Shown here in pieces: positions 32,236-33,124 of a DNA stretch of 64,000 nucleotides. This DNA comes from Gemmatimonadota bacterium (lineage in GTDB: Bacteria > Gemmatimonadota > Gemmatimonadetes > Longimicrobiales > Gaopeijiaceae): positions 1 through 64,000 of the forward strand of contig JAPPNO010000123.1 in assembly GCA_028873845.1 (NCBI GenBank). The letters are read 5' to 3'. A program made the translations under genes and the position numbers. The stretch's first letter is position 1; each line of letters starts with the position of its first letter. The notes beneath the pieces were generated by a model. That model did no database searches. It was not told the origin of the DNA and worked only from the letters and a program-made list of their open reading frames with translations.

Positions 32236-32383
32236 AAGTCCTGATCCCGGACAGAGGTGCGCGAAAAGAGCGCCAATGTGGGACTTGGAGCCGTCGCAAA
32301 CAAGCGGTGGCGTCGCCCTGCGGCCCGATCACTTTCCGGGGGGTTGCGGCCCGGTGCCGGCGTCCCTATCGTTCGCCCGCGTC

Positions 32384-33124
32384 ATGTCCGCCCCCGGCAC
32401 CTCTCCCCACCACTTCAAGCGCATGCCCAGCGGATCCAAGTCCATTATTTCAGGCCACAGCTCGCCTGCACCTCGAACCGCCCCAGCGCTGACCGATCTT
32501 GAACAGCGCATCCTGGACTACATGGTGGTCTACCTCCGCACCCACACCTATCAGCCCTCGATCCGGGAGATCGGCCACCACTTCGGGATCAAGAGCACGA
32601 AGACGGTGTCGGAACTGCTCCAGTCGCTGGCGGACAAGGGAGTCGTCGAGCGTGACCCGTCGCGTTCCCGCGGCATCCGCATCCTGGGTCTGGACCTCAA
32701 TGCGCCGACCGTATCGCTGCCCTGCTTCCGTGACCTCGCCGAGGTCGTGGCCGGACTTCGCGGCGGCCGGGCCGAAAAGCGGGTGTGCCTCGACCGGCAG
32801 CTGGCCGGCCGCAGCGGTGGTTTCACCGTGTACGCGACCGGCGACCGGCTGGCCGCGGCCGGAATCGGGGAAGGGGACCTCCTTGTGGTCCAGCCGGTGC
32901 GGGCCGAGGAACTGGCCGACGGAGAGATCGTCGTTGCCCGGGTCCGTGGAGTCACCGACTACCATCAGCTCGAGAAGCGTGGCCCGCGGGTGCTGCTGCG
33001 CGCGGTCGGGGGCGACAGAAGGGCAGTGGACGGCTCGGCGCAGCCGGTCATCCTGGGAAGGGTTGCGGGGTTCTACCGTCATGTGACGCCGCTTTCCTTC
33101 GCGGGACCCTTGACGGCGCACTAG
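32384..33124 (+). CDS. LexA-like repressor with degenerate S24 peptidase domain
   Basis: wHTH LTDLEQRILDYMVVYLRTHTYQPSIREIGHHFGIKSTKTVSELLQSLADKGVVERDPSRSRGI; C-terminal GFTVYATGDRLAAAGIGEGDLLVV...VVARVRGVTDYHQLEKRG. Confidence 0.85.
   Translation: MSAPGTSPHHFKRMPSGSKSIISGHSSPAPRTAPALTDLEQRILDYMVVYLRTHTYQPSIREIGHHFGIKSTKTVSELLQSLADKGVVERDPSRSRGIRILGLDLNAPTVSLPCFRDLAEVVAGLRGGRAEKRVCLDRQLAGRSGGFTVYATGDRLAAAGIGEGDLLVVQPVRAEELADGEIVVARVRGVTDYHQLEKRGPRVLLRAVGGDRRAVDGSAQPVILGRVAGFYRHVTPLSFAGPLTAH

Follow-up and report, generated by a model that had tools for sequence, protein, structure and literature searches.

In Escherichia coli LexA, Ser119 and Lys156 form the autoproteolytic dyad. The nearest precedent for the protein described here is LexA of Synechocystis sp. 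PCC 6803, in which the catalytic Ser is replaced by Asp and the scissile Ala-Gly by Gly-Gly, and which is uncleavable (PMC3091678). This protein is thought not to be an SOS regulator and to control other processes, perhaps tuned by phosphorylation (PMC7567884). In Leptospira interrogans, a second LexA (LexA2) exists beside LexA1 and recognises a palindromic site in the promoter of its own gene (PMC3789691). Non-canonical LexA proteins of Bacteroidetes retain the dyad (PMC8565304). Phage 186 CI and the Gifsy repressors are switched by partner proteins, the former by Tum and the latter by LexA-controlled antirepressors (PMC3121763, PMC7708051). SipA from Streptococcus pyogenes, which belongs to the LexA/signal peptidase superfamily, has lost both Ser and Lys and has a non-proteolytic role (PMC12984324).

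The locus examined here lies in a stretch of 64,000 nucleotides from a member of the Gemmatimonadota (hereafter the window) and encodes a LexA-like protein. LexA2 is used as a working name for this protein and its paralogue group, for which no description was found in the open papers, a source of incomplete coverage. As in Synechocystis LexA, the catalytic Ser and the scissile bond are replaced and the DNA-binding domain is retained. However, the Synechocystis protein is described as the organism's LexA, whereas LexA2 is a paralogue that coexists with a live LexA (LexA1); in LexA2 the Lys is lost as well, and the loss is fixed across the window's family and recurrent in the class. LexA2 shares its domain order, winged helix, and S24 fold with LexA1 and canonical LexA (TIGR00498) but lacks the Ser-Lys dyad, the Ala-Gly bond, and a recognised autoregulatory box, and it falls below the equivalog cut-off. 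The Leptospira LexA2 differs in keeping Ser and Lys, probably with a Cys-Gly scissile bond (PMC3789691). Phage 186 CI and the Gifsy proteins are phage immunity repressors, the latter being much shorter (136 aa), and SipA belongs to the signal-peptidase branch and is not a transcription factor.

The LexA2 gene and its catalytic positions

The open reading frame at 32384-33124 on the forward strand was confirmed as real, with a LexA-like product. An internal ATG is the probable start and the 233-residue protein the likelier product (Table 1), because the Met is kept within the genus (MPSG or MPTG) and the sequence preceding it is not. The initial annotation described the N-terminal half as a canonical LexA winged helix, which agrees with a match of residues 22-84 to PF01726 (LexA_DNA_bind; 59.8 bits, Pfam cut-off 23.7). 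Residues 123-194 match PF00717 (Peptidase_S24) with 26.3 bits, barely above the Pfam cut-off of 23.3. Against the NCBIfam lexA model TIGR00498, the protein scores 102 where the cut-off is 110.95 and so narrowly fails as an equivalog. Two dyad-dead relatives, L028 (126) and L042 (154), exceed this cut-off, and annotation pipelines would name both LexA.

LexA2 was aligned with E. coli LexA, the reference sequence of which was entered by hand and agrees with PDB matches. The alignment gave the replacements of Ser119 by Arg and Lys156 by His stated in the initial annotation, and Ala84-Gly85 is not conserved. The motifs had been said to align without gaps; this is correct within each motif, but a two-residue insertion lies between them relative to E. 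coli. The assignment of the Ser and Lys columns nevertheless holds, because the insertion is also present in LexA2 orthologues with an intact catalytic site, in which Ser and Lys occupy exactly those columns. In the C-terminal half, the only conserved Ser or Lys column found within the window's family is a Ser that precedes the cleavage loop. Since both dyad residues and the Ala-Gly bond are lost, self-cleavage of the window's LexA2 appears implausible; this supports the earlier statement that it cannot self-cleave, in which the scissile bond had not been mentioned.

An AlphaFold2 model of LexA2 (71 sequences) had a mean pLDDT of 89.5. Foldseek searches with the model placed LexA-DNA complexes at the top (3jso, E 1.2e-12); matches to isolated LexA C-domains had a TM of 0.73 (M. 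tuberculosis LexA C-domain), and phage 186 CI was among the S24-fold repressors matched. Over the full length the TM was low, which a different orientation of the domains probably explains. In the window's LexA2, the prediction places a helix in the former cleavage loop, and there is no helix at this position in an intact orthologue from the sister family.

Table 1. Features of the lexA2 locus (window positions) and candidate operators (contig positions or loci)
Feature	Position	Strand	Remarks
lexA2 coding sequence	32423..33124	+	233 aa; likely true start ATG 32423 (MPSG...); first-stage ORF starts at 32384
Promoter-like TTGCGG-N17-TATCGT	32344..32372	+	just 5' of lexA2; no LexA-type operator recognised inside
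LexA winged-helix DNA-binding domain (PF01726)	32486..32674	+	profile match; dN/dS 0-0.03 in closest pairs
Cys101 codon	32723..32725	+	Cys in 97% of f1; column of E. coli Leu78
Former cleavage-loop region	32735..32764	+	Ala-Gly gone; predicted helix (residues 105-114), loop in intact orthologue
Arg codon CGG at catalytic Ser119 position	32846..32848	+	alignment with E. coli LexA
His codon CAT at catalytic Lys156 position	32963..32965	+	alignment with E. coli LexA
C-terminal His233 codon	33119..33121	+	His is last residue in 59/65 f1 members
TTCGG-N6-TTCGG box	G000 C22:48749-48788; C117:6303, 10495 (loci L101, L102, L107, L108)		tandem pair before lexA1; before imuB-like and dnaE2 genes
GTACG-N4-CGTAC	upstream of lexA2 at L134, L135, L136, L128, L053		dyad-intact genes

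Orthologues of LexA2 and the pattern of loss

Relatives of LexA2 are found throughout the order, and two other families of the class have them as well. Families are designated by working codes (f1, f2, f3, f5, and f9), f1 being that of the window and f3 its sister. Orthology is indicated by shared synteny and by the tree, in which f1 forms a single group (support 98) and f2, f5, and f9 also form one group each. The order gltX - lexA2 - tadA - (Na+/H+ antiporter) - pyrR - pyrB - pyrC occurs in most genomes checked, f3 included.

The substitutions in the window are part of a family-wide state: the dyad is lost in all 65 f1 members, with both residues gone in 64. The Ser119 column contains Arg, Glu, Asp, Gln, and others, mostly charged, and the Lys156 column contains Tyr, Phe, or His in 56 of the 65; no Ala-Gly occupies the aligned scissile columns among the f1 rows listed. 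In contrast, Ser, Lys, and Ala-Gly are intact in 11/11 sequences from f3. At least one dyad residue is lost in 8/8 sequences from f2, where the missing residue varies between genera, and the dyad is lost in all four f9 sequences and in 20 of the 43 from f5. Among the f5 losses, Arg replaces Lys in 18/20, and Ala often replaces Ser. Over the 131 LexA2 sequences counted, at least nine losses are needed on a rooted tree with irreversible loss, an approximate figure from a quick tree with many weak forks in which f1, f2, and f9 are merged into one loss. Within one locus, the families form a natural series of LexA proteins: catalytic in f3 and part of f5, half-dead in f2, and fully dead in f1. With a live SOS LexA alongside, the series makes testable how a repressor sheds its switch yet retains its DNA-binding role.

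No LexA2 match was found in seven f1 genomes, perhaps reflecting incomplete assemblies; these genomes suggest that LexA2 may be non-essential, though assembly gaps could also account for them. One f2 genome (G047) contains a second LexA2 (L069) that is near-identical to that of an f5 genus (g51), pointing to assembly contamination or recent transfer. In three short proteins from f3 (L074, L075, and L076), the winged helix is of the LexA type and an S24 domain could not be recognised.

Selection was estimated as dN/dS (NG86) for pairs of the window and its closest relatives. The LexA2 winged helix gave 0-0.03 and the remaining (S24) half 0.17-0.19; within the same genus, LexA1 gave 0.09-0.17 for the winged helix and 0.16-0.20 for the C-terminal half, and TadA 0.14-0.20 overall. 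The DNA-binding domain of LexA2 is therefore under far stronger purifying selection than its S24 half, and the constraint on the dead S24 half is similar to that on the live S24 half of LexA1.

Two further positions are conserved in f1, Cys101 and the terminal His (Table 1). The His is encoded by both CAC and CAT and is retained where a gene other than tadA follows. Overlap with tadA was rejected as the cause of the conserved last codon, as the next gene differs and the codons vary. The six sequences that make up one genus are without the terminal His. A terminal Ala-His is found in two intact f3 members as well, and the Cys in one.

LexA1 and candidate operators

The initial annotation had raised the question of a canonical lexA elsewhere, and one is present in the same genome. 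LexA1 (C22:48858-49436) has GDSM, TVKK, and AAG, and it shares 34% identity with LexA2 over 156 aligned positions. Tandem TTCGG-N6-TTCGG direct repeats occur 5' of lexA1 in the upstream regions of 14/15 genomes. The window's genome has 13 such sites, 11 on one strand and 2 on the other, against 2 on each strand for the reversed control. Besides the lexA1 pair, single sites lie 5' of an imuB-like gene of the Y family (PF00817) and of an error-prone dnaE2 gene (PHP domain; a fragment scores 128.7 bits with PRK05672). Several of the 13 fall inside coding sequence and are probably due to chance. In layout the repeat is similar to GTTC-N7-GTTC, the direct-repeat box of Alphaproteobacteria, and it is a putative SOS box of the Gemmatimonadota. 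Because it precedes lexA1, the imuB-like gene, and dnaE2, LexA1 is most likely the SOS repressor and switch.

No TTCGG box was found next to lexA2. Searches for palindromes and direct repeats upstream of the dead lexA2 genes found no shared operator, only sigma70-like promoters, and early candidates were rejected as coding sequence (LERRILDY). In the f1 promoters, neither conserved dyad symmetry nor a known box was recognised that could serve as an autoregulatory SOS box. A palindrome, GTACG-N4-CGTAC, lies at or adjoining the promoter of 4/23 intact f5 and 1/11 f3 lexA2 genes. This corresponds to 5/34 intact versus 0/97 dyad-lost genes (Fisher p 0.0009, a value that ignores relatedness, with three of the five from one genus). 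Exact-pattern counts were used; a weight matrix had been trained partly on the promoters that it scored. In the window's genome the palindrome shows no enrichment, with 2 sites against 6 for the reversed control, and in two f5 genomes (G067 and G109) a second copy lies inside a thymidine-kinase-like coding region. The distribution hints, as a lead only, that intact LexA2 may repress itself and that this loop may have been lost together with cleavage.

Possible roles of LexA2

The preferred explanation, with a probability of about 0.8, is that LexA2 is an old LexA paralogue that has turned into a non-cleavable, pseudoprotease DNA-binding regulator and that LexA1 runs the SOS response. Judging from homology, the winged helix of LexA2 would still recognise a conserved operator specifically, with the S24 domain kept for dimerisation and possibly for signal reception. 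RecA would be unable to trigger self-cleavage, so that control would have to be non-autoproteolytic; expression level, a ligand, redox state or a metal, modification, a partner protein, or a separate protease might set LexA2 activity. LexA1, encoded elsewhere, would control the SOS response, and LexA2 has probably been rewired to another signal. The initial annotation had offered two options, that the protein is not an SOS switch or that it is inactivated by another route. The former is favoured because the SOS-type operator precedes lexA1 itself and the error-prone polymerase genes, and the latter keeps a minor share of the probability.

A sub-case of the non-cleavable regulator, with a definite mechanism, is that the former dyad pocket became a sensor: Cys101, the C-terminal His, and the aromatic or His residue at the Lys column would form a putative site for a metal, a ligand, or redox sensing, through which DNA binding would be tuned. 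The conservation of Cys101 and of the terminal His, with either codon and independently of tadA as neighbour, is consistent with this proposal, as is the non-random set of residues at the Lys column. It is nonetheless tentative, as the intact f3 members with these residues suggest that the Cys and His may predate the loss, and one genus manages without the terminal His. Similarly speculative is the wider proposal that the class has repeatedly made a duplicated LexA into a reversible sensor-regulator, with a Cys/His or ligand site in place of the dyad and operator specificity kept.

Alternatively, LexA2 might still be linked to SOS and be inactivated by a LexA1-controlled antirepressor or by another protease. 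Phage 186 CI/Tum and the Gifsy repressors provide precedents (PMC3121763, PMC7708051), and the live LexA1 circuit could control such a factor. However, the conserved lexA2 neighbourhood contained no gene recognisable as a candidate antirepressor, and the missing TTCGG box also counts against this link, which is considered unlikely. It is far less probable that lexA2 is a relict drifting to loss; many independent dyad losses and the genomes without the gene would fit such decay, but both halves are under purifying selection, the winged helix is highly constrained, and the frame is open in nearly all copies. Least credible, to the point of being negligible, is a sequencing or assembly artefact or a misalignment that hides an intact Ser and Lys. 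Most of the genomes compared are metagenome assemblies, but the same state recurs in 65 genomes, including the chromosome-level OX639991.1 (Longimicrobiales), and intact orthologues align in the same columns. Loss in every f1 member cannot be explained by sequencing error or chance. For annotation of this phylum, the non-cleavable reading has a practical consequence, since automatic pipelines label several uncleavable proteins LexA and would thereby misassign the SOS regulator.

Upstream of lexA2, where gltX is usual, the window carries a xanthine/uracil-type permease gene (PF00860; 30499-32235, reverse strand). This gene is divergent from and adjoins lexA2 in part of the genus, and gltX holds the position in most other relatives. 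In three f2 genomes (L047, L048, and L059), a tRNA-Gln-like sequence, spotted by eye, lies immediately 5' of lexA2.
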